This document shows, one piece after another, positions 3,101-49,001 of a stretch of DNA of 64,000 nt (the stretch's first letter is position 1; each line of letters opens with the position of its first letter). The position numbers were made by a program, and so were the translations under genes. The stretch is from Candidatus Oscillochloris fontis. Its GTDB lineage: Bacteria > Chloroflexota > Chloroflexia > Chloroflexales > Chloroflexaceae. Where the stretch lies: assembly GCF_004138135.1 (NCBI RefSeq), contig NZ_RYFD01000011.1:1-64000 (forward strand), in the 5' to 3' direction. The notes under the pieces were generated by a model. The model searched no databases, had not been told where the DNA came from, and saw only the letters and a list, made by a program, of their open reading frames with translations.

Positions 3101-3495
3101 GAGAAGGCCACCAGCGGGTTCGCGGCGAGTGGCACCGGAGCGCCGGTCGCTTCCTGCACATAGAGCATCTCCCAGGGGATCGTCTGAAGTTCGGGGGCGT
3201 TACTCTTGATCCAGAGTTGCAGATGCAGCACACCGCGCCCGCGCTGGGCGGCGATCCAGGCTTGGCGAAAGAGCGCCAAGAGTGAGTCGGGGAAGAGGCG
3301 TTCAAAGAGCAACAGCCCGTAGGCCGCCAAATCACTGCCCCGCGCACGCGGCGCGGGCGGTGGGGGCAGATCAGCGAGAATCAGCCAATCACTTGCGGCA
3401 CTGCCATCGGCCAACGTCAGCCGTAAGGGAAAGGCATGGCGCATGGAGTCACGGTCGGCGATCTCAAGCACCAGGAGATTGAGGGGTTCGGTCAT
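127..3495 (-). CDS. CHAT-domain peptidase fused to a STAND-like NTPase and helical repeats
   Basis: 1122 aa from the ATG at 3495, whose ATGA overlaps the stop of the upstream gene, so translational coupling is likely. Residues about 150-355 form a CHAT (caspase-like) peptidase domain with the expected dyad: His223 in FYGHGLY and Cys270 in VLISCNTA. Residues about 425-700 look like a NACHT/STAND module. A Walker B-like strand (VLLIDGLE, Asp514) is clear, but the P-loop position reads SGGSRISRS and lacks the lysine. The rest is Ala/Leu/Arg-rich helical repeat of HEAT/TPR type. CHAT-STAND proteins are known as regulated proteases in bacterial conflict and cell-death systems; that role here is an inference. 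No signal peptide or membrane segment is seen, so it is probably cytosolic. Confidence 0.85.
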   Translation of the reverse strand: MTEPLNLLVLEIADRDSMRHAFPLRLTLADGSAASDWLILADLPPPPAPRARGSDLAAYGLLLFERLFPDSLLALFRQAWIAAQRGRGVLHLQLWIKSNAPELQTIPWEMLYVQEATGAPVPLAANPLVAFSRYVDSPNPFVAPLERWPLRVLIAIGAPNDLATRWGGLTPVDFVEERSRLAAVLDAVSSAGQIEYRFLQPATPEALLRAMEDGYQMVIFYGHGLYTPRLGTSLMLQRADGAGQLLSGNDLVAALRRNGTRPALFVLISCNTAPQRADPALDNLGIQIVRDGGVPAVVAMRDLVEIDLARAFTQYLCDYLLRYGMIDRAMVAARRQVFDPQSANWTTPVLYLRSRDGRLFVPNAQLEFARLLSNDPQISPAAIAAPAGARLNLLKTTPDEQPNPREARLLLDDLLALGQSQTTPAPLVVSGGSRISRSLLLQQWAWKQNRDTTAQMVAVYLALAEDRHLQAGMRIEDRLIEAASLLDPAHGVALMNLLAEGKDGGAARFVLLIDGLESLEPSRRMLLAELLATLARRWPAQRIVISVEEAEAPDLLRQSDTFWLLLTPLSERQIRAYLRYRDPPRALSHLRAIMRGGLRDLANDPQMLTAIAERLIEDTRSRTLTRDELLSGLLDRLVERAASAGVTRAGARAGMLALAWALHSSLRSSMTITVARALLREYEPEADLYTALCQAGALVEIGGALVQMPHLALQSYAAALALQERADLATQLTEIMVQAGLPQRMDWWNPVLIGLAQRSERLDLLTPIWTAIAQELSGAQAVVAARCIGAFFQAQRQSSSLLVRRPSAAEERHLNSLIDRLLIQLDPRFEPSAALRAMLAEALGQLAYPQVRSALRRQLAERVLLVDDAWQYDRPLVRAAAARALRDMPGSSEENGHFTSLLQAWRRTQHEALVTALTAPDYQSDERALAAFALSDMSDQPGVQERLLDLLLHGEGEGAKKEWQATQAAIADALILEADERLADLLEPALLAQADLDLRTEILMLNIVGACAGHRPALRTWLAERSQKPRIPLVASLAQMALARAVSNPGPQDDALRSQLEQAARHMIETPISAEVPMVATLRRLAIQTLVWLGVTGDGTPPPAITSWPVALRQAWWELVGG

Positions 3496-5876: not shown

Positions 5877-6004
5877 GGAGTCTTCTCCACAAGCAGGATC
5901 TGGGAGGTATTATAACCCGTGTTGGCGTCATTCCCCGATTATCAAGCCCCACTTCCGTGCTGCATCCGCACTGGTTGGCATAGGGGTCAAAGCTCAGCCC
6001 GAAT

Positions 6005-6140
6005 GTAACTGTTCACACTTCTCCTAGCTTCCGGTTTTTGACGCAAAGACGCAGAGGCGCAAAGCCTGCAATAAAACCTTTGCGTCCTTGCGCCTTTGCG
6101 TCAATACGAGATTTCTTTTACCCCAAGTGTGAATAGTTAC
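6005..6140. mobile_element. 136-bp IS66-like MITE, copy 1, with 8-bp target duplication
   Basis: Begins GTAACTGTTCACACTT and ends AAGTGTGAATAGTTAC (one mismatch between arms). The inner part is a long imperfect hairpin of TTGACGCAAAG-type sequence. Directly repeated GCCCGAAT flanks it (5997-6004 and 6141-6148), which is a clean target site duplication. It encodes no protein. The rest of 5877-6437 holds the upstream region of the STAND gene, a possible gene remnant and a short palindrome. Confidence 0.85.
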
Positions 6141-6227
6141 GCCCGAATGGCATTTTGCGCTCCGTGAAAGACGATGATGAGTGGCAGGGGGGAGGCACTG
6201 ACGGCGGGTGGGACGTGCAGAATATAG

Positions 6228-6452
6228 GTGCGTCCCATATTGTACGATAATCTAGCGAATAGTAATCCCATGCAGCGCATTGGTAATCAGTGGTGTCTGG
6301 TTTGGATGTGGAACGACACCAAAGTTGGCGGACGCAATCCGTGGCCATGGCTCATCCTGACGTTGGCCACAGGCTCCATCGGAGCATTGATATACCTGAT
6401 GAAGTACAAAAATGCCCGTAGGGGCGATGCGTTGCCCCTACCCGAACGATAG
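6228..6452 (+). pseudogene. possible remnant of a small membrane protein
   Basis: A 74-codon open frame whose middle carries one plausible transmembrane helix (PWPWLILTLATGSIGALIYL). This resembles the C-terminal end of small multi-helix membrane proteins, but no complete family fold is present and the start is arbitrary. The last codons come from a dispersed GGGGCGATGCG palindrome at 6417-6441. I read it as a decayed gene end rather than a functional gene. Confidence 0.25.
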
Positions 6453-7199
6453 ATCGCTCGTCTCCAACCACTGCTCCTCTGGCGCATCCAACAAGCCCCA
6501 ACCAAAACGGCCCTGCGGCGTCACCACCAGATACTGGTTGTCTACCCAGGCCACAAAGCAGAGCGGCCCACGAGGTGAGGGTACCTGATCAAGTACCGCA
6601 ACTCCATCCACCAAGAGGCTGCTGACCCGTTCACCCCACACGATTTCATAGTCGTGCCAGTCGGTCATGCTGCTGTGGAGTTGTGCCTCCTGTACCCCCA
6701 CGCAGCGCTGGATTCCCGGCCAGAGCATGCGGTAGCCCGCGTAGCTGCGCATAAGCGGCACGGCCAGTGGTGCGAACGGGAGCAGCGTCAGTGCTTGGGG
6801 CCGCCCGGTATCCATCGTCGCGGCCTTCCAGCCATGCCCCGGCACCCCTAGCGCCAGCTCCATCGCGGCGGGTGGCGAGGCGAAGAAGAACCAGAGTGTC
6901 TGGGGGAGCACCGGATGGGTCAGGTTGGGGTAGTTCCACAACCCGAACCCGGCTGTGCCACGCAGTGCGTGGGCCGGGTGCGAGAAGCGCGCCCGCAGGC
7001 TGATGCGCAGCGGCGGCCTGCGCGGGAGGTGCAGCCCGCGCAGGCGATAGTCGTGGATCTGGGCGTCGCTGTAGCAACGCGCTGTGACGTTGCGGGTGGT
7101 CATGCGCAGCCCCGCCGCGCTGGCCGCCACCCGCCCCTCTCCCGCCTCGTAGATGCCCCAGGGGGCTTGGCGGTCTAAGATGTCACGGATCGTACTCAT
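6438..7199 (-). CDS. conserved hypothetical, concanavalin A/GH16-like beta-sandwich
   Basis: 253 aa from the ATG at 7199 (MSTIRD). Upstream in-frame codons come from a dispersed repeat and are not part of the gene. The sequence is rich in aromatic residues and short beta-strand stretches (GTAGFGLWNYP, LWFFFASPP, DWHDYEIVWGERVSSLLVDG). The last pattern is typical of LamG/GH16-like sandwiches that present a ligand-facing concave sheet. I cannot see the ExDxE catalytic motif of active GH16 enzymes, so hydrolase activity is not supported. No signal peptide is seen. The gene stands alone between repeats and ileS. Confidence 0.6.
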   Translation of the reverse strand: MSTIRDILDRQAPWGIYEAGEGRVAASAAGLRMTTRNVTARCYSDAQIHDYRLRGLHLPRRPPLRISLRARFSHPAHALRGTAGFGLWNYPNLTHPVLPQTLWFFFASPPAAMELALGVPGHGWKAATMDTGRPQALTLLPFAPLAVPLMRSYAGYRMLWPGIQRCVGVQEAQLHSSMTDWHDYEIVWGERVSSLLVDGVAVLDQVPSPRGPLCFVAWVDNQYLVVTPQGRFGWGLLDAPEEQWLETSDLSFG

Positions 7200-7200
7200 C

Positions 7201-7584
7201 TTCGCATCCCGGTTTTGACGCCAAGACGCCAAGGCGCAAAGCGTTCAATAAACCCTTTGCGCTTTGGCGTCAAGAAGAACATTCTGCCTTCTCCTGGCAT
7301 CCCAGTTTTGACGCCAAGACGCAGAGGCGCAAAGCGTTCAATAAACCCTTTGCGTCTTTGCGCCTTTGCGTCAAGAAGAACATTTTGTTTCCTCCAACCC
7401 TTTGCGTCTTTGCGCCTTTGCGTCAACACGAGATTTCTTTTACCCCAAGGGTGAATAGTTACCTGGCATCCCAGATTTTGACGCTAAGACGCAGAGGCGC
7501 AAAGCGTTCAATAAACCCTTTGCGTCTTTGCGCCTTTGCGTCAAGAAGAACATTTTGTTTCCTCCAACCCTTTGCGTCTTTGCG
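7201..7584. repeat. compound array of the GACGCAAAG hairpin repeat
   Basis: Several tandem, partly duplicated copies of the inner hairpin of the 136-bp element. One terminal arm is still visible (GTGAATAGTTAC ending at 7462). A segment beginning CTGGCATCCCAG is repeated at about 7294 and 7463. No gene is present; open frames here are translations of the palindromes. The array directly abuts the ends of the flanking genes, and its right-hand TTGACGC supplies the ileS stop codon. Confidence 0.8.
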
Positions 7585-10500
7585 TCAACATTCGGCGCGC
7601 ACGATACCCATCTGCACCGTCCCTTCACCCAACTCCACCGCCTCCACATGCGCCTCGGCGGGCATCGCCCCCACCACCAGGCTGGTGGCGAGTGTCTCGC
7701 TACCCACATACTCACCCCACACCGCCAGGGTCTGGCTGAGCATTTCGGCGGTGGCCGCGTCGCTCGCCTCCAGACTCAGGCTGATCCGATCCGAGATCGC
7801 CAACCCGGCCTGTTTGCGCGCATCCTGCACGCTGCGCACCAGATCGCGCGCCGCCCCTTCCATGCGCAACTCATCCGTCACGCTGGTATTGAGTGCCACC
7901 AACATACCATCCGCATCGGCGACCGCGTAGCCCTCTGGGGCGCTGCTCTCAACGAGCAACTCTTCGGGGAGGATGCTCAACTCCTGGCCCTCCACGTTCA
8001 GCACCACTGGCTGCCCGGCTTCGACTGCATGCGCGGCTGCGCGTGCCGCCACACCATCCAGTGCCTTGAGTGCGGCGGTAAGCGCGGGTACCTGCTTGCC
8101 GTACTTCTTGCCCACTAGGCGCAGGTTGGGCTTGAAGCGGTATTCGACAATCTCCGATCCGGCTTCCAGGTAGCGCACCGCCTTGACGTTCAGTTCATCA
8201 CGCAGATCCGACTCGAAGCGCCGCACGCCCTCGGTGGCTGCCGGGGTCTGGCCGCGCACCCACAGTTCGCTCAGTGGCTGGCGCACCTTCAGGTTGGCAT
8301 TCTTGCGTGCCGCTCGTCCCAGCGAGACCGCCGCCAGGAGCGCTTCGGTATCGGCGACGAGTTGGTCATCAAGGAGCGCCGCATCCACCTGCGGCCACGC
8401 CGCCAAGTGGACGCTCTCGGCAGCATCGGGCTGGCCGCTGCTCAGGTTGCGGTAGATCGCCTCGGCCATGAAGGGCGCGAAGGGCGACATCAGTTTGGAG
8501 ACGGTGAGTAGCGCGGTGTAGAGCGTCTGGTAGGCGGCCTGCTTATCCGCATCGGTCTCGCTCTTCCAGAAGCGCCGCCGGTTGCGCCGCACATACCAGT
8601 TGGAGAGTTCGTCTACAAAATGCTCAATGGCACGCCCTGCCGGGTAGACCTCATACTCCTCCAAACTCGCGGTGACATCGCGCACCAGGCCATTGAGCCG
8701 CGCCAAAGCCCAGCGGTCAATCGGCTGGAGCGCCGCACTCTCCGCCATCCCCGGCTTCCAATCATCCAGATTGGCATAGGTGACAAAGAAGCTATAGGTA
8801 TTCCAGAGCGTCAGCATGAACTTGCGCAGACTCTCATTCACCAGCGCCCCACTGAAGCGGCGCGGGTTGCCGGGAGGGGCAGCGGTGAAGAGATACCAGC
8901 GCAGCGCATCTACCCCGTACTGCGTGATCACCTCCTGGGGCGTGATCACATTGCCCCGGCTCTTACTCATCTTCAAGCCCTGCTCATCCAGAATATGACC
9001 CAGACAGATCACATTATTGAAGGCCGGGCGGTCGAAGAGCAGCGTACTCACCGCGTGCAGCGTATAGAACCACCCTCGCGTCTGATCCACCGCCTCGCAG
9101 ATATAGTCGGCGGGGTGTGCGGCCTCAAAGACCTCCTGGTTCTCGAAGGGGTAGTGCCACTGCGCTACCGGCATTGAGCCACTATCGTACCAACAGTCGG
9201 CCACATCGGAGATGCGGCGCATGGTGCCGTGCTGTGGGTGCTCCCAGGTCAGATCATCCACGTATGGGCGGTGCAGATCGAGATCCTGGAGCGAGCGCCC
9301 CACCTTCTGCTCCAACTCTTCGAGCGAGCCGATACACTCCATGTGGTTGCCATCGGCACTGACCCAGATCGGCAGCGGGGTGCCCCAGTAGCGCTCACGG
9401 CTGATTGCCCAGTCAATGTTATTCTCCAGCCAATTGCCGAAGCGACCATCACGGATATGCTCCGGCACCCAGTGGATCTGCTGGTTATTCGCAACCAGAT
9501 CGGGCTTAAAGGCGGTCGTCTTGATGTACCACGAACGCTTGGCATAGAAGAGCAGCGGCGAGTCACAGCGCCAGCAGAAGGGGTAGTAGTGGCGCACGCG
9601 CCCACTCTTCAGCAGCAGCCCGCGCTCGCGCAGGTTGCGCGTGATGTCGGGATCGGCCTGCTTGAAGAACTTACCCGCAAAGCCCAACTCGGCAAACTCC
9701 GGCATCACCATGCCATTCAGATCAACCGAGAAGAGCGTCGGTAGGCCGTGCTTCTTCCCCACCTCCAAGTCGCCATAGGCCGGGGCGATATGCACAATCC
9801 CGGTACCATCATCGAGCGACACCATCTCATCGGCGATGACGCGGTAGGCCGTCTCCAGATCGACCGTATCCCCCGCACCGGGCACACCCGTAAAGAGCTT
9901 CTCGTAGCGCAACCCCACCAGATCATTGCCGTTGAAGGTGCGCAGAACGGTATACTCCTCACCCAAGACCGCATGTAGCAGCGCCTCGGCCAGCACCAGC
10001 CGCTCGCCCTGATACTCGACCTCTGCGTAGGTTGCCTCGTGCTTCACCGCTAGGGCCACATTTGCCGGGAGCGTCCAGGGTGTCGTCGTCCAGGCCACGA
10101 GGAACGCCCCGACTAGCGTCTCCCCATTCGCGCCAGCGCGAGGCACCCCATCGCCACAGACGCGAAACTTAATAAAGACACTCGGATCATCCACATCGTC
10201 ACGCGCGCCCAGACTGACCTCGTGGTCACTCAGGCCGGTGCCACAGCGCGGACAGTGCATCGTCACCTTATAGTCACGGAAGAGCAGCCCGCGATCCCAG
10301 AGTTGGCGGAAGATCCACCAGAGCGACTCGATATACTTATTGTCGTAGGTATAGTAGCCATCATCGCTCACCCAGTAGGCAATGCGCTTGGTGAAGGTCT
10401 GCCACTCCTGGATATACTCCCAGACACTCTCGCGGCAGCGGGCATTAAACTCGGCAATCCCATACTTTTCAATATCGGGTTTCCCACTAAATCCGAGCTT

Positions 10501-11174: not shown

Positions 11175-11310
11175 GTAACTGTTCACACTTGGGGTAAAAG
11201 AAATCTTGTATTGACGCAAAGGCGCAAGGACGCAAAGGTTTTGTTGCAGGCTTTGCGCCTCTGCGTCTTTGCGTCAAAAACTGGAAGCTAGGAGAAGTGT
11301 GAACAGTTAC
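11175..11310. mobile_element. 136-bp IS66-like MITE, copy 2, with 8-bp target duplication
   Basis: Opposite orientation to the copy at 6005. The ends GTAACTGTTCACACTT and AAGTGTGAACAGTTAC are exact inverted repeats of 16 bases. The flanks are GACGGAAC on both sides (11167-11174 and 11311-11318). It sits immediately upstream of the ileS promoter. The remaining 11319-11477 holds no clear gene. Confidence 0.9.
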
Positions 11311-11477: not shown

Positions 11478-12239
11478 ATGATGCATGGGCTTTCGGTTGC
11501 GATTATTGCGCGTGATGAGGCTCGGCATATCGAGGGATGTCTGGCCAGCCTGCTCGGCCTTGCCGATGAGGTGGTGGTGCTGGTTGATGCACGTACCCGC
11601 GATACCACCGCATCGCTCTGTGCGGCGTATGGCGCTCGCGTCTTTATTGAGCCGTGGCGCGGCTTTCCCGCCCAGCGTAACCGCGCCCTCGATCTCTGCC
11701 GTTACCCGTGGGTACTCTTCATTGACGCGGATGAGCGCGTTGAACCCGATCTGGCGGCTGAGATTCGTGCGCTCTTGTCGGCCACGCCGCTGGCGGTGGG
11801 GTACTGGATTCCGCGTCATAATCGTTTCTTTGGCCAGACGTTGCGCGGTGGTGGGTGGTACCCGGATTGCCAACTGCGTCTGTTGCGCCGCGATGTAGCA
11901 CGCTATGACGAGGCGCGCTTGGTGCATGAGTTTGCCGATCTGCATGGCGAGTTGGCGACGCTGCGGGGCCACTTTACCCACGAGAATATCGAGACGCTGG
12001 GCGAGTTTTGGGCTAAACAGACGAGCTACGCCTTAGCGCAGGCGCGCACCTTGGCGTCCGAGGGGCGGCGCACCCGCCTGCGCAACTTCTTCGGGGCACC
12101 GGCGCGTGAGTTTGTGCGCCGCTACATCCAGTTGGGTGGCTGGCGCGATGGTGCGCTGGGTCTCTTCTTGTGTGGCGCGTTGGCTTGGTTTGAGTTGGTG
12201 GCGTATGCCTTTCTGCTGCATATTCAAGCGAAAAAGTAA
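11478..12239 (+). CDS. family 2 glycosyltransferase (WaaE/KdtX-like)
   Basis: 253 aa from the ATG at 11478; an in-frame GTG at 11448 would add ten residues, and no strong ribosome site decides between them. A GT-A fold is indicated by SVAIIARDEARHIEGCL at the N terminus and by LFIDADER, the DxD-type metal/nucleotide-sugar site. The region AQRNRALDLC between them is typical of WaaE-like enzymes that add a sugar to a lipid-linked acceptor. A C-terminal hydrophobic stretch (GLFLCGALAWFELVAYAFLL) may anchor it to the membrane. Its TAA overlaps the ATG of the next gene by one base. The acceptor is unknown. Confidence 0.85.
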   Translation: MMHGLSVAIIARDEARHIEGCLASLLGLADEVVVLVDARTRDTTASLCAAYGARVFIEPWRGFPAQRNRALDLCRYPWVLFIDADERVEPDLAAEIRALLSATPLAVGYWIPRHNRFFGQTLRGGGWYPDCQLRLLRRDVARYDEARLVHEFADLHGELATLRGHFTHENIETLGEFWAKQTSYALAQARTLASEGRRTRLRNFFGAPAREFVRRYIQLGGWRDGALGLFLCGALAWFELVAYAFLLHIQAKK

Positions 12240-13174
12240 TGAGTGATCTGCACAGCTATGCAACATTCCTGCAACGTCTGTTGCTTGATCAGGTGGTAGT
12301 CGCGGCTCCACTCACTGATCTGGCTCGGTTGGAACACATGCTGACTCAGCCTGCCTTTGCTTTCCCCTATCTATTTACAGCGCATGTGGATGCGCTGCTA
12401 GAGACATGGCCAGATGGGGCGACGCTACGCCCGGAGAGTATTCCCCCCACACCGCTCTGGCTGGGAGCGGTACTCTATCAGATCGCGTGGTTGCATGATC
12501 ATCCCGATGAGGATTTGATCACCTTCACCGAGCGCATGATTGCGGCTCTACCAGTGGCCGAGGATCTGCCTACCCAGATCGGCTACCATTGCCTGATATG
12601 GGCATGGATGCGGGCGCAACGGGGCATCATTGCCGACCACCTGCAACCATTGCTGCGCGATCTGCTGGCGCGTAGCCCGCTCAGTGCGGTATGGTTCCTG
12701 CATCTAGAGGTATTGCCATCCCCACAGATGCTCAGTTCTCTACTTGTCTATACGCCGGTGCGGGCGGCACTGCGTGACCATTGGCTCAATCTGGGCTTGC
12801 GCCCCGCTGAGGTGCGACGCGGGCTGCGTCCGGAGCGCGTGGCGGCGAGTGCGGCGGTGGGGACGCTGCTGGGCCAGTTGTTGGCGCTGGATGTGGTGTG
12901 GCAGCCGTGGGTGTTGGACTTCTATGAGGTGGAGTGTATGCTCTCGCGGCAAGGCAATGATGAGCGCCCGCAGTGGCCACTCTTAGAACAATTGCGCCTC
13001 GCCCGCGTGCATGGGGATGCTCGTCAGCGCCGCTTGGTTGAGCGGGCTATGAAGCGTTACCGTCCCCTGCACACTATTATGAAGTCCGAAGCGGCCAGTT
13101 TGCGCCCATACATCTATTTGGATGTCCGCTTTCTCGAACAGATAGCGCGTCTGTATGCCAAATCTACCCCGTGA
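12239..13174 (+). CDS. hypothetical helical protein, first gene of the AAA+/vWA cluster
   Basis: 311 aa, not recognised. It is Leu/Ala/Arg-rich and predicted mostly alpha-helical, with no signal peptide, membrane segment or catalytic motif that I can see. It starts within the stop of the glycosyltransferase gene (TAATG). Its last codons (YAKSTP) lie in a 28-bp sequence duplicated at 13763-13790. Before the insertion described there, this gene would have overlapped the start of the TPR gene now at 13764. That original overlap argues it was translationally coupled to the TPR protein and belongs to the same system. Confidence 0.6.
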   Translation: MSDLHSYATFLQRLLLDQVVVAAPLTDLARLEHMLTQPAFAFPYLFTAHVDALLETWPDGATLRPESIPPTPLWLGAVLYQIAWLHDHPDEDLITFTERMIAALPVAEDLPTQIGYHCLIWAWMRAQRGIIADHLQPLLRDLLARSPLSAVWFLHLEVLPSPQMLSSLLVYTPVRAALRDHWLNLGLRPAEVRRGLRPERVAASAAVGTLLGQLLALDVVWQPWVLDFYEVECMLSRQGNDERPQWPLLEQLRLARVHGDARQRRLVERAMKRYRPLHTIMKSEAASLRPYIYLDVRFLEQIARLYAKSTP

Positions 13175-13181
13175 GTACCAT
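13154..13181. repeat. 28-bp direct repeat, left copy
   Basis: Starts TATGCCAAATCTACC and ends GTGAGTACCAT. It is identical over 28 bases to 13763-13790. It carries both the 3' end of the 311-aa gene and a silent copy of the start of the TPR gene. Confidence 0.95.
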
Positions 13182-13234
13182 AGCCGATATCGGATTATCA
13201 GATCGATTCAGTATATAATTGCGAGATAAAAAAC

Positions 13235-13783
13235 ATGGAGCGACCTACTCAACAATTAGAGGGTCAAGAACTGTATGAGCGCCAAAAGCAATTGCGCTCA
13301 CAAATGCTTTACCCGCCAGCGCCCCGTATTATTGCTGCAAATCTCCAAATTCCTGATAACTTGGGGAGTGTTCTTCGGCTTGCGGATGCGGCTGGAAGTA
13401 GTTCTGTCATATTCATTGGTGCTATCGAAATTGATCATAAGCGTATACATAAGATAGCCAGGAACTGTGATTCTTTAATACCTTGGGAGGTCTATGATAG
13501 TGATCGATTCTTTGAGGAGATTCACCTATTCCGTCCGCTGGTGGCTCTTGAAATAACATCTTGTTCAAGTGATATATTCTCAACAAATATGCCCGATAAC
13601 TGCACATTTGTTATTGGGAATGAGCGTCATGGTATACCAGAAAAGATATTATCTGAATGTGACTTTTCAGTGCATATTCCTATGTACGGAACAAATGGTT
13701 CAATGAATGTAACGCATGCCTTAGCGATAGCACTATTTGAATGGAGAAGACAAAAATTGCATTATGCCAAATCTACCCCGTGA
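13235..13783 (+). CDS. SpoU/TrmH-family RNA 2'-O-methyltransferase, inserted
   Basis: 182 aa. The three SPOUT motifs are present: NLGSVLRLADAAG (motif 1), FVIGNERHGI (motif 2) and IPMYGTNGSMNVTHALAIAL (motif 3). This predicts SAM-dependent 2'-O-methylation of a ribose in tRNA or rRNA. The gene is strikingly AT-rich compared with its GC-rich neighbours and lies between two perfect 28-bp direct repeats. Its last six residues (YAKSTP) are encoded by the right repeat, so its natural C terminus has probably been replaced. It is short for the family and has no N-terminal substrate-binding extension. The target RNA is unknown. Confidence 0.88.
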   Translation: MERPTQQLEGQELYERQKQLRSQMLYPPAPRIIAANLQIPDNLGSVLRLADAAGSSSVIFIGAIEIDHKRIHKIARNCDSLIPWEVYDSDRFFEEIHLFRPLVALEITSCSSDIFSTNMPDNCTFVIGNERHGIPEKILSECDFSVHIPMYGTNGSMNVTHALAIALFEWRRQKLHYAKSTP

Positions 13784-13790
13784 GTACCAT
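13763..13790. repeat. 28-bp direct repeat, right copy
   Basis: Identical to 13154-13181. It contains the functional ATG (13764) of the TPR gene and the stop codon of the inserted SpoU gene. Confidence 0.95.
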
Positions 13791-14444
13791 CTGCGCCGGG
13801 CGGTGCAGTCTTATGAGCAGTGTGGTGAATACCGGGCGGCGGCGGAGTTACTCGCGGCGTTCGGGACCCCCACGGCGAGTGCTGAGGCGGCGCGGCGGCT
13901 GCTGATCCTTGATGATCTCCCGGCGGCGGGCGAGGCGTTTCTGGCGGCCCAACAGCCGCGTGCGGCGCTCGAATGTTTCCGCCGCGCCGGGATGCCCGCC
14001 CGCGAGTTGGCGTGCCTCCAGGCACTCGGCGATGATCTGGCGGTGGGAACGCTGCTCTTAGATCTGGGGCGCGTGGCCGAGGCGGTGGCGCCGCTGCAAC
14101 GTGCGCTGGCCCAAGCCGAAGATCGGGTGATTCAGGCGCGTCTGCACCTCCAGGTGGCGCACGCCCTGGGCGACCCGGCTGGTCAGGCGGATTACCGGGC
14201 GGGCTTGGCGCTGCTGCCGCTGCTGCCCCACAGCGCCGAGAGCGCCCCGGTCTGGTTGGCGCTGGCCGCCTGGGGCGAGGCGGTCGGGCGGATGGATCGG
14301 GTGCAGGAGGGGTATGCCGAGGCGCTACGGTTGCTCGATCATCCCAGTACGGCGGCGGCGCACCAAGCTGCACTGCGGCGCTACCGGGCGGCGGCTGAGC
14401 GGATGGGGAATCGGGGGTTAGTGGATAGGTTGGGACAATCTTGA
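13764..14444 (+). CDS. TPR-like helical repeat protein
   Basis: 226 aa from the ATG at 13764 (MPNLPREYHLRRA). This start lies in the duplicated 28-bp sequence and overlaps the end of the inserted SpoU gene by 20 bases. The protein is made of Ala/Leu-rich helical hairpins with TPR-like spacing (YEQCGEYRAAAELL, AARRLLILDDLPAAGEAFL, LGRVAEAVAPLQRALAQ). It is probably a cytosolic protein-binding scaffold. Similar repeats occur at the C terminus of the 565-aa protein encoded at 21755, which supports a place in the same system. No catalytic motif is seen. Confidence 0.75.
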   Translation: MPNLPREYHLRRAVQSYEQCGEYRAAAELLAAFGTPTASAEAARRLLILDDLPAAGEAFLAAQQPRAALECFRRAGMPARELACLQALGDDLAVGTLLLDLGRVAEAVAPLQRALAQAEDRVIQARLHLQVAHALGDPAGQADYRAGLALLPLLPHSAESAPVWLALAAWGEAVGRMDRVQEGYAEALRLLDHPSTAAAHQAALRRYRAAAERMGNRGLVDRLGQS

Positions 14445-14486
14445 GGAGTGGTGGAGAAGGTTGGCGCTTATAGGAGTGAAACAACT

Positions 14487-15197
14487 ATGAATAATACCTA
14501 TAACATCTACTGCGATGAGAGTGGACATTTGGAACACGGCACACCATTAGTGATGGTTCTTGGTGCTATCTGGTGTCCTATGGAAAAGACACGCGAGATT
14601 ACTTGCCGAATACGTGAGATCAGCGAGCGTAATGGCATGTCACCGAATTTCGAGATCAAGTGGGGAAAGGTATCCTCGGCAAAAACGCAATTCTATCTCG
14701 ACTTAGTTGATTATTTCTTCGATGATGATGACTTGCATTTTCGTGCACTCGTTATTCCAGATAAAACACAACTTCAACATGAAAGATTTAAGCAAAAACA
14801 TGATGAATGGTACTATAAAATGTATTTTACTATGTTAAATGTGATTATTGATCCAGGATTGCATTACCGTATTTATCTTGACATCAAAGATACACGTAGT
14901 ACAGATAAAGTACAACATCTCCACACAGTACTTAGTAATAAAAATTACGATTTTAGTCGTACAATTATTGAGCGTATTCAAAACGTCCGTTCAAATGAAG
15001 TGAAAATTCTACAAGTGGCAGATCTCTTTATCGGCGCTGTAAGTTATGCTAATCGTCATTTGTCAGATAATGCAGGTAAAGTGGCAATCGTTGAGCGTAT
15101 CCGTGAGCGATCTAAATATACACTTACCCGATCTACGTTTCCTCGTGAGAATAAGGTCAATATCTTTATTTGGAAGCCTAACAGGGGGAATGTATGA
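14487..15197 (+). CDS. DUF3800 protein (RNase H-like fold), acquired
   Basis: 236 aa from the ATG at 14487, preceded by ATAGGAG. DUF3800 hallmarks are the N-terminal IYCDESGHLE, a central IYLDIKDTRS and the C-terminal KILQVADLFIGAVSYA. These carry the acidic residues expected for an RNase H-like metal site. Its base composition is AT-rich relative to the flanking cluster. The stop overlaps the start of the next gene (ATGA), so the two form a coupled pair. DUF3800 genes often occur on mobile or defence islands; the biochemical activity here is unproven. Confidence 0.85.
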   Translation: MNNTYNIYCDESGHLEHGTPLVMVLGAIWCPMEKTREITCRIREISERNGMSPNFEIKWGKVSSAKTQFYLDLVDYFFDDDDLHFRALVIPDKTQLQHERFKQKHDEWYYKMYFTMLNVIIDPGLHYRIYLDIKDTRSTDKVQHLHTVLSNKNYDFSRTIIERIQNVRSNEVKILQVADLFIGAVSYANRHLSDNAGKVAIVERIRERSKYTLTRSTFPRENKVNIFIWKPNRGNV

Positions 15198-15685
15198 CAT
15201 TACCTGATTGGCTTCCTCCAATGCTCGATCTAAGCGGAGACTGGAATGATATCCTTCATCAGCTTTATACCGTATTTACCCGTGATTTCAAAACGGGGTC
15301 GTTGTTTCTGGCTGGTGAGCCGATCTGGCATGACCGTCGTATCTTACCGGGTGAAGCTTACGAGGAGAGTTTCTGGCATCTTGTGACGCGCAAAGATAAC
15401 AAGAGTGGCGACCGCTTGCCAGATTTTCGTCGTGCTGAACGGCTGCCATGGTGTGCCCCCATTCTGCGCAATATCAATGATCCTGCGATCAAATTTTGGC
15501 ACTATCGGGAGGGGAATCAGCGTTTGCGCATGTATGCTTGGTTAGAAGCCGGGGATTATGTGGTCATACTTGAGCATAAGCCGAAACGCATTGGACAGGT
15601 GGCGTTTCTCATAACTGCATACCACCTTGATGGGGAATCGATGCGAAGGAGTATGCGTAAACGATACGAGCGGAGAGAATTATAA
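15194..15685 (+). CDS. hypothetical, possible RelE/BECR-fold nuclease-like partner of DUF3800
   Basis: 163 aa, coupled to the DUF3800 gene by an ATGA overlap. The pattern of its middle and end (DFRRAERLPWCAPILRNI, RLRMYAWLEAGDYVVILEH, VAFLITAYHLDG) recalls phage-type BECR nucleases. In those, an R..R..W start is followed by strands ending in a T-A-Y/H motif. The similarity is by eye only and could be wrong. If right, the pair may act as a toxin-like effector and partner. It has no membrane or secretion signal. Confidence 0.45.
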   Translation: MTLPDWLPPMLDLSGDWNDILHQLYTVFTRDFKTGSLFLAGEPIWHDRRILPGEAYEESFWHLVTRKDNKSGDRLPDFRRAERLPWCAPILRNINDPAIKFWHYREGNQRLRMYAWLEAGDYVVILEHKPKRIGQVAFLITAYHLDGESMRRSMRKRYERREL

Positions 15686-15784
15686 ATGCAACTGCCGCAG
15701 CCTTACAGCTACGGCAGAAGATCTCTTTCTACACCTGGCAGATGAGTCTAACGTTATTATACCACACATAATGGTTAAAAATCA
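15686..15784. other. AT-rich gap with a short hairpin
   Basis: Contains CTGCCG...CGGCAG at about 15691-15716, possibly a weak terminator for the DUF3800 pair. The next gene starts at 15785 without an obvious Shine-Dalgarno sequence. This gap is probably the right border of the acquired segment. Confidence 0.4.
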
Positions 15785-19881: not shown

Positions 19882-20012
19882 GTTATCCGCAGATTACGCA
19901 GATTACGCAGATTATTTAAAATCATAAAAATCTGCCTTAAAAAATCTGCGTAATCTGCGTAATCTGCGGACAAATATGCATAATCTGCGGACAAATATGC
20001 ATAATTTGCGGA
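19882..20012. repeat. inverted and direct (ATCTGCGTA)n tracts upstream of the GxxExxY gene
   Basis: ATCCGCAGATTACGCAG-type sequence faces copies of ATCTGCGTAATCTGCGGA, with smaller pieces (ATAATCTGCGGACAAATATG) repeated after it. The whole forms an inverted pair around an AT-rich centre. It separates the AAA+ gene from the inserted gene. Confidence 0.85.
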
Positions 20013-20029
20013 TACATCAAAGGGGTTTT

Positions 20030-20431
20030 ATGGTTATGGATCATAACGTACAGCGCGACCCCCAGACCTATGCCATTATTGGTGCCGCTATGGCTGTCCA
20101 CCGCGAATTGGGGCATGGCTTTCTTGAATCGGTCTACCAGGAAGCATTAGAGATTGAGCTTACGAAGCAAGGCATCCCCTTCTTGCGCGAAGTTTCTATT
20201 CCGATATACTACAAAGAGACGTTGCTCAAAACAACATATCGCCCAGATTTTATTTGCTTTGATGCAGTGATTGTCGAACTGAAAGCAATAGATACGCTTA
20301 GCAGTAAGGAAGAAGCTCAATTATTAAACTATCTGAAGGCGACTAAAAAACAAAGAGGCTTATTGCTTAATTTTGGCAACAAAAGCCTTCAGCATAAGCG
20401 AATGGTTCTAAATTTAAATGAAACTAGCTAA
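20030..20431 (+). CDS. GxxExxY family protein, probably inserted with its flanking repeats
   Basis: 133 aa from the ATG at 20030, preceded by AAAGGGG; upstream in-frame codons are repeat-derived. The name-giving motif is GFLESVYQEAL. Downstream elements are FLREVSIPIYYKE, YRPDFICFDAVIVELKAID and QLLNYLKAT. The last two resemble the core of PD-(D/E)xK nuclease-fold proteins (D...E-L-K). Activity has not been established for the family as far as I know. It is AT-rich relative to both neighbours and is embedded in ATCTGCGTA repeats, interrupting the AAA+/MoxR gene cluster. Its final codons are part of the tandem repeat that follows. Confidence 0.85.
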   Translation: MVMDHNVQRDPQTYAIIGAAMAVHRELGHGFLESVYQEALEIELTKQGIPFLREVSIPIYYKETLLKTTYRPDFICFDAVIVELKAIDTLSSKEEAQLLNYLKATKKQRGLLLNFGNKSLQHKRMVLNLNETS

Positions 20432-20547
20432 AAAATCTGCGTAATCTGCGTAATCTGCGGATGAAACTAGCTAAAAAAATCTGCGTAATCTGCGTAATCT
20501 GCGGATGAAACTAGCTAAAAAATCTGCGTAATCTGCGTAATCTGCGG
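20418..20547. repeat. three tandem 43-44-bp repeats including the 3' end of the GxxExxY gene
   Basis: Unit starts ATGAAACTAGCTAAAAAATC and ends in three ATCTGCG-type repeats, at 20418-20460, 20461-20504 and 20505-20547. The first unit contains the last codons and stop of the GxxExxY gene; the others are non-coding copies of that end. Confidence 0.9.
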
Positions 20548-20564
20548 ATGAAAAAGGAGCAAGC

Positions 20565-28303: not shown

Positions 28304-28320
28304 ATCCTTCTCCTCGCATT

Positions 28321-28456
28321 GTAACTGTTCACACTTCTCCTAGCTTCCAGGTTTTGACACCAAGACGCAGAGGCGCAAAGCCGGCAACAAAACCTTTGCG
28401 TCCTTGCGCCTTTGCGTCAACACGAGGTTTCTTTTACCCCAAGTGTGAACAGTTAC
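28321..28456. mobile_element. 136-bp IS66-like MITE, copy 3
   Basis: GTAACTGTTCACACTT at the left and AAGTGTGAACAGTTAC at the right, exact inverted repeats. The flanks are CTCGCATT and CTCGCATC, a target duplication with one change. It lies just upstream of the gene pair at 27482-28303. Confidence 0.9.
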
Positions 28457-28465
28457 CTCGCATCT

Positions 28466-31461
<2,996 letters not shown>

Positions 31462-32817: not shown

Positions 32818-33088
32818 GTAACTATTCACACTTGGGGTAAAAGAAACCTCGTTTTGACGTAAAGGCGCGAAGACGCAAAGGGTTGTTGCAGGCTTTGCGT
32901 CTTTGCGTCAAAACCTGGAGGCTAGGTAACTGTTCACACTTGGGGTAAAAGAAATCTCGTATTGACGCAAAGGCGCAAGGACGCAAAGGTTTTGTTGCAG
33001 GCTTTGCGCCTCTGCGTCTTTGCGTCAAAAACTGGAAGCTAGGAGAAGTGTGAACAGTTCCGAGGCTAGGAGAAGTGTGAACAGTTCC
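32818..33088. mobile_element. tandem/nested pair of IS66-like MITEs, copy 4, with 8-bp target duplication
   Basis: Two units joined head to tail: 32818-32925 lacks its right arm, and 32926-33060 is nearly complete. A fragment of the right end (GGCTAGGAGAAGTGTGAACAG) is repeated to 33088. GAGCAACG flanks the whole (32810-32817 and 33089-33096). The outer end reads GTTCC instead of GTTAC. The region 33097-33281 carries another GGGGTGACGCATCG palindrome and no gene. Confidence 0.85.
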
Positions 33089-33281
33089 GAGCAACGTTGC
33101 CGGGTGCCCCGATCATTGCGTAGGGGTGACGCATCGCTCTCCAACTTTGTCTGGGTTTGCCTGCTCCATGAAATGCGATGCGTCGCCCCATGTCCCCACA
33201 TAGATCCCCACTGGCTGGTACAATAGGTAGGCCGATGCATTGATGCGTCGGTCTATCTGATTCTGTTGAGGATATGGTCTC

Positions 33282-42429: not shown

Positions 42430-42447
42430 TCCGCCCCGGACGAGTGT

Positions 42448-42482
42448 CCGCAGATTACGCAGATTACGCAGATTACGCAGAT
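42448..42482. repeat. (ATCTGCGTA)n tract, reverse orientation
   Basis: GTCCGCAGATTACGCAGATT and two further TACGCAGAT units, between zur and the convergent SDR gene. No gene is associated. Confidence 0.8.
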
Positions 42483-42499
42483 GTTGTTGTTAGGGCTTA

Positions 42500-48768: not shown

Positions 48769-49001
48769 AGTTCTCCTAGCATTCCGGTTTTGACGCCAAG
48801 ACGCCAAGGCGCAAAGCCTTCAATAAAACCTTTGCGTCTTCGCGCCTTTGCGTCAACACGAGGTTTCTTTTACCCCAAGTATGAACAGTTACCTAGCATT
48901 CCGGTTTTGACGCCAAGGCGCAAAGCCTTCAATAAAACCTTTGCGTCTTCGCGCCTTTGCGTCAATCAGAAGCTTCCTTTACCCCAAGTGTGAACAGTTA
49001 C
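48757..49001. mobile_element. IS66-like MITE, copy 5, plus an adjoining partial copy, between hoxH and hoxW
   Basis: A full 136-bp unit (48757-48892) is followed by a partial unit ending with AAGTGTGAACAGTTAC at 49001. Direct repeats AAATTCGT flank the pair (48749-48756 and 49002-49009). Removing the insert rejoins a GTG-AAT-ACG-AAT-TTA-GTG start of hoxW, six bases after the hoxH stop. Confidence 0.9.

Follow-up and report, generated by a model that had tools for sequence, protein, structure and literature searches.

Very probable insertion of a foreign SpoU-type RNA methyltransferase gene at a bacterial gene junction with duplication of 28 bp

The question raised by this locus is how a gene of foreign composition came to stand between two neighbouring genes, bounded on both sides by the same 28 bases. 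The gene, for a predicted RNA 2'-O-methyltransferase (the methylase), lies in a 64,000-nucleotide stretch of DNA from Candidatus Oscillochloris fontis (the window). The window is part of a 4.46-Mb draft assembly of 139 contigs, and the structure of the junctions is known from this assembly alone. A first-pass annotation had described a perfect 28-bp repeat flanking an AT-rich methyltransferase gene, and the description was exact in its coordinates (Table 1). The two copies are identical and run in the same direction, and the bases flanking them diverge immediately on both sides. For a 64-kb sequence of the same composition, chance would be expected to give only about 1e-8 exact repeats of at least 28 bp lying within 5 kb of each other. 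Moreover, the pair is unique in the genome: a check for wider spread of the 28-mer, allowing up to 3 mismatches across the 4.46 Mb, gave no further copy, and the proposed search of the same genome for other copies of the AT-rich unit likewise found none.

Table 1. Positions of the repeat copies, the inserted DNA and the surrounding genes in the window
Feature	Position	Strand	Remarks
311-aa protein gene	12239..13174	+	3' end, with the stop codon, falls within repeat copy 1
Direct repeat copy 1 (TATGCCAAATCTACCCCGTGAGTACCAT)	13154..13181	.	holds the upstream gene's last codons and a dead duplicate of the first nine TPR codons
AT-rich inserted DNA, 581 bp, 41% GC	13182..13762	+	lies between the repeat copies
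182-aa SpoU/TrmH-type RNA 2'-O-methyltransferase (predicted)	13235..13783	+	PF00588, 90 bits
Direct repeat copy 2	13763..13790	.	gives the methylase end and the TPR start (ATG 13764)
226-aa TPR-like protein gene, original downstream neighbour	13764..14444	+	homologues in relatives
Further AT-rich insertion, separating the TPR gene from the 762-aa gene	14445..15784	+	DUF3800 protein and 163-aa protein

The DNA between the repeat copies differs sharply from its surroundings. Its GC content is 41%, against 63-67% in the flanks, and the GC3 of the methylase reading frame is 0.34, compared with 0.65-0.77 in the host-like neighbour genes. It holds one intact gene of 182 codons, the methylase being the only gene of any size in it, behind a 53-bp leader that carries a TATAAT hexamer at 13214-13219; no full sigma-70 promoter pair in the insert passed a promoter scan. 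No hairpins beyond those of shuffled sequences were detected at the insert junctions, and neither an RNA family nor a tRNA was found at the insertion site.

If the flanks are joined at a single 28-mer, then the upstream gene ends in ...RLYAKSTP followed by its stop codon, the TPR gene starts with MPNLPREYHLRRAV, and the two genes overlap by 20 bases. In repeat copy 2, accordingly, the last six codons of the 311-aa gene are present a second time, together with its stop. Because the joined flanks restore both genes, and because each copy holds a duplicate of part of one neighbour, the sequence speaks strongly for the duplication of a single ancestral 28-bp segment upon insertion.

Comparison with relatives is consistent with this analysis. 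The 311-aa protein, which has no Pfam match, has homologues in four genomes (G016, G006, G020 and G027; 34-48% identity) and aligns with them up to RFLEQIA/RFLQQIA, directly before the repeat. The TPR protein has homologues in G004 (57%), G020 (50%) and G006 (48%), and here the N-termini align starting at the repeat (MPNLPREYHLRRA in comparison with RPHIPPSYYLRRA and RSTLPPEWYARRL). That the flanking proteins align up to the repeat on one side and from it on the other bears out the proposal that the insertion duplicated the junction and so preserved both the upstream stop and the downstream start. The alignment with methylase-free relatives, which had been suggested as a check, gave the expected empty site: in G006 and G020, which belong to two other genera of the same family and whose proteins are only 34-49% identical to those of the window, the 311-aa and TPR genes are adjacent with no methylase between them. 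Among 41 genomes of the family, no complete 311-aa/TPR pair was found besides these two. The ancestral gene overlap that had been proposed was upheld as regards the adjacency in both relatives and the 20-bp overlap of the joined flanks; an overlap of the same length was not seen in the relatives. In G006, where the start codon is uncertain, the TPR frame may begin with a GTG about 10 bases or less after the upstream stop, and in G020 a short gap follows the upstream stop and the TPR gene has a separate ATG. For this reason, we infer the exact length of the ancestral overlap from the window alone.

The methylase itself is a clear member of its superfamily. Its PF00588 match scores 90 bits against a curated cut-off of 29.7 and covers positions 3-142 of the 142 in the profile; the SpoU domain spans residues 31-168, and the usual SpoU motifs are kept (R48, G128-N129-E130, S156-M157-N158). 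This domain is common to the known SpoU/TrmH methyltransferases, including the TARBP1 C-terminal domain, TrmL and RlmB. In comparison with TrmL, RlmB and TrmH, however, the methylase is a stand-alone 182-aa form that scores below the NCBIfam equivalog cut-offs (RlmB, 59 of 160 bits; TrmL, 49 of 191; TrmH, 39 of 227). The nearest solved relatives are the TARBP1 SpoU domain (2ha8) and an RNA 2'-O-ribose methyltransferase (1ipa). Only two close sequences were found: G001, a genome of the same genus, encodes one that is 67% identical, and G351, a member of the phylum but a distant one, encodes another at 56%. The two genes occupy unrelated loci, are GC-richer and are free of a long flanking repeat. 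The next relatives are only about 33% identical. The organism's own genome holds no further member of this subfamily, its remaining SpoU paralogues being only 26-27% identical. No close relatives were found in viral contigs, and those on plasmids and phages are distant, at less than 60% identity. This patchy distribution of the subfamily, together with the foreign composition, points to horizontal arrival of the gene. Between the methylases of the window and G001, dS is saturated and dN is 0.26. Judged from such comparisons, the methylase family is under purifying selection, a property of the family that is not specifically shown for the time after the insertion.

The 3' end of the gene gives a further indication of how the insert was joined to its target. 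In the relatives of the methylase, the protein terminates at the position corresponding to residue 176 or at most 2 residues away, with ...LFEWRRQQAHMV and ...LFEWRRQHLE each followed directly by a stop codon. In the window, the insert stops after ...LFEWRRQKLH and the frame runs into repeat copy 2, where it is read as YAKSTP and a stop. Since the nearest methylases end at about the point where the insert ends, the YAKSTP residues and the stop are supported as target-derived, and the suggestion that the gene had borrowed its last six codons fits the position at which its relatives terminate. This origin of the last six residues sets the methylase apart from its SpoU/TrmH relatives. The donor stop codon may share its first base or two with the TA of the repeat. 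As alignments to 2ha8 and 1ipa reach methylase residues 175/176, the six extra residues should sit outside the fold.

In order to place the repeat pair in a wider context, 1.34 Mb (30% of the genome) were surveyed for exact repeats of at least 18 bp at spacings of 150-5000 bp. The survey gave 75 pairs with 18-mers occurring only twice, and among these the pair in the window shows the strongest GC contrast. The pair that ranks second, on contig C28 (L120), was rejected as a target duplication; it belongs to a cassette array of attC-like blocks. Three GC-rich blocks of 134 bp lie there at 1161-1294, 1902-2035 and 3133-3266. They begin with GCCCAAC and end with GTTGGGC, in the manner of attC sites (RYYYAAC...GTTRRRY), and between them are AT-rich open reading frames without a Pfam match. 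This arrangement probably represents an array of integron cassettes, in a genome of the Chloroflexales. The same contig carries a tandem array at about 1500-1800, with a unit near GTCGGCCACGTTCACCGCCCGTTGAAGA. Third by GC contrast is a 114-bp direct repeat on contig C15 (L098; 992-1105 and 3952-4062), 82% identical with 51 bp exact, which represents the 3' end of a sugar-kinase-like gene. It surrounds a 2.85-kb block encoding a ParE-type toxin, an F420H2-dependent quinone reductase family protein, a 4Fe-4S protein and a PadR regulator, and could represent an older event of similar logic, as a single case. In the 1.34 Mb surveyed, gene gain is thus not regularly accompanied by long exact duplications, and a dedicated mobile system finds no support.

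A further AT-rich insertion lies directly downstream of the TPR gene. Its DUF3800 protein matches phrog_3732 and its 163-aa protein matches phrog_16230. No flanking repeat was found around it, the only match being one of 12 bp inside genes. G006 has, shortly after its TPR homologue, a gene whose product is homologous to part of the 762-aa protein. The window also contains a dispersed repeat family of TTTGCGTC/GACGCAAAG units with ends like GTAACTGTTCACACTT, at 6000-7600, 11175-11310, 28320-28530, 32825-33090 and 48775-49000. Clusters of a short repeat with the unit AATCTGCGT (CGCAGATTA on the opposite strand) occur at 79-110, 19886-20560 and 42447-42490.

On the basis of these sequence comparisons, a foreign methylase gene was very probably inserted at the overlap of the 311-aa and TPR genes, with a 28-bp target duplication. 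Copy 1 would have kept the end of the 311-aa gene and copy 2 the start of the TPR gene. The methylase DNA would have arrived without its own stop codon, and copy 2 would have supplied six residues together with a stop, which overlaps the start of the TPR gene. Such an insertion could have been retained because no gene was broken and because the newcomer stands in a transcribed, translationally coupled gene row.

As to the mechanism of entry, a one-off illegitimate capture is the reading that we favour, with a little more than even confidence. For the route of a repair-type capture we infer two variants. In one, a replication or repair fork would have copied past the 28 bp, switched to methylase DNA and returned 28 bp upstream; in the other, a break with a long stagger would have been filled in around a captured fragment. 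Against accidental duplication it counts that 28 bp is long for one. The end-joining variant of capture is weakened because Ku was not found in this genome, which is rated 99.99% complete, and Ku-dependent end joining was dropped; the control search for Ku was positive in only 1 of 14 genomes, a result that is plausible for this family. Among the eukaryotic break-repair insertions of one study, target duplications (4-21 nt) occurred mainly with retrotransposed inserts, and repair-class insertions showed microhomology, deletions or filler (PMC2671141). Transposed genes of Arabidopsis carry flanking direct repeats homologous to the target site, for which the authors propose insertion of a circle made from tandem repeats (PMC2869330). 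There, as in the window, a single non-transposon gene lies between repeats homologous to a single-copy target; the present case, however, is bacterial, and nothing was seen in it of a circle derived from tandem repeats. Known repair or template-switch processes could conceivably produce an insertion like that of the methylase.

The alternatives to such a capture invoke an enzyme acting in trans, a transcript copy or an error of assembly. The insert contains no transposase or recombinase gene, and no positive-scoring inverted match, and hence no terminal inverted repeat, was detected between its ends. Elements of the IS1202 family have terminal inverted repeats of 24-26 bp. It is unlikely, on these grounds, that a transposase in trans moved the methylase as a non-autonomous element in the manner of the long-duplication group of that family, although a non-autonomous copy would itself lack a transposase. 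The right end of the insert falls, besides, within the last codons of the methylase, the genome has no second copy of the unit, and nowhere else in the 1.34 Mb surveyed does an exact-repeat pair enclose a non-repeated insert of comparable GC contrast. The window duplication is nevertheless exact and within the 16-28 bp range of that group, so that the length as such would be compatible with a transposase (PMC10132070). A small circle might also have been integrated by a tyrosine recombinase or XerCD in trans, with the 28 bp as attL and attR, but this is similarly improbable. The dif sites are likewise 28 bp long, and the older case on contig C15, with its gene-3'-end repeat around an AT-richer block, would suit such integration. 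But the 28-mer is coding sequence of the target, and a circle would have needed the same 28 bp beforehand; its dyad symmetry is 4/28 and its match to E. coli dif 10/28, and the repeat is absent around the methylase's relatives. The Xer comparison is a weak one, as a search of the genome with the dif consensus gave two weak matches, no better than a reversed control. The pdif-flanked dif modules of Acinetobacter plasmids also place a small gene unit between 28-bp sites, but the repeat described here shows little likeness to dif and belongs to the flanking coding sequence (PMC6449649). Of the two routes that the first-pass annotation had offered, repair-mediated capture or a recombinase, the former thus fits better, because no element ends, recombinase gene or second copy were found.

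An integron gene cassette was rejected: no attC pattern occurs in 13101-13850 on either strand, and the same pattern finds the three blocks on contig C28. Target-primed insertion by LINE-type elements gives target duplications of variable length, and reverse transcriptases are encoded at two places in the genome; it is still very improbable that a reverse-transcribed mRNA was inserted here with a long target duplication, as the insert does not resemble a transcript copy, starting upstream of the TATAAT (a possible -10 box) and ending within coding sequence. Since no promoter pair passed the scan, this argument carries limited weight. An assembly artefact, in which unrelated contigs were joined through the 28-mer, might be suspected in a draft of 139 contigs. 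It is highly unlikely, given that the methylase fragment would still need to carry the 28-mer at either end and that a subfamily member in the same genus attests the gene in these organisms. Scarcely any probability attaches to a mobile single-gene unit without classical ends, served by an undescribed enzyme that would make duplications of about 28 bp and prefer stop-start overlaps in gene rows.

Overall, the methylase locus presents gene capture in one tidy instance, and nothing in it indicates a new mobile element. By one-off capture, the duplication would have given the methylase a stop codon and its protein a new tail while leaving the stop-start overlap as it was, all in a single event. 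As one case the locus establishes no mechanism, and it can serve as an example when gene gain in operons is modelled. It would represent an unusually readable record of a foreign gene entering an overlapping bacterial gene row and leaving its neighbours unharmed.
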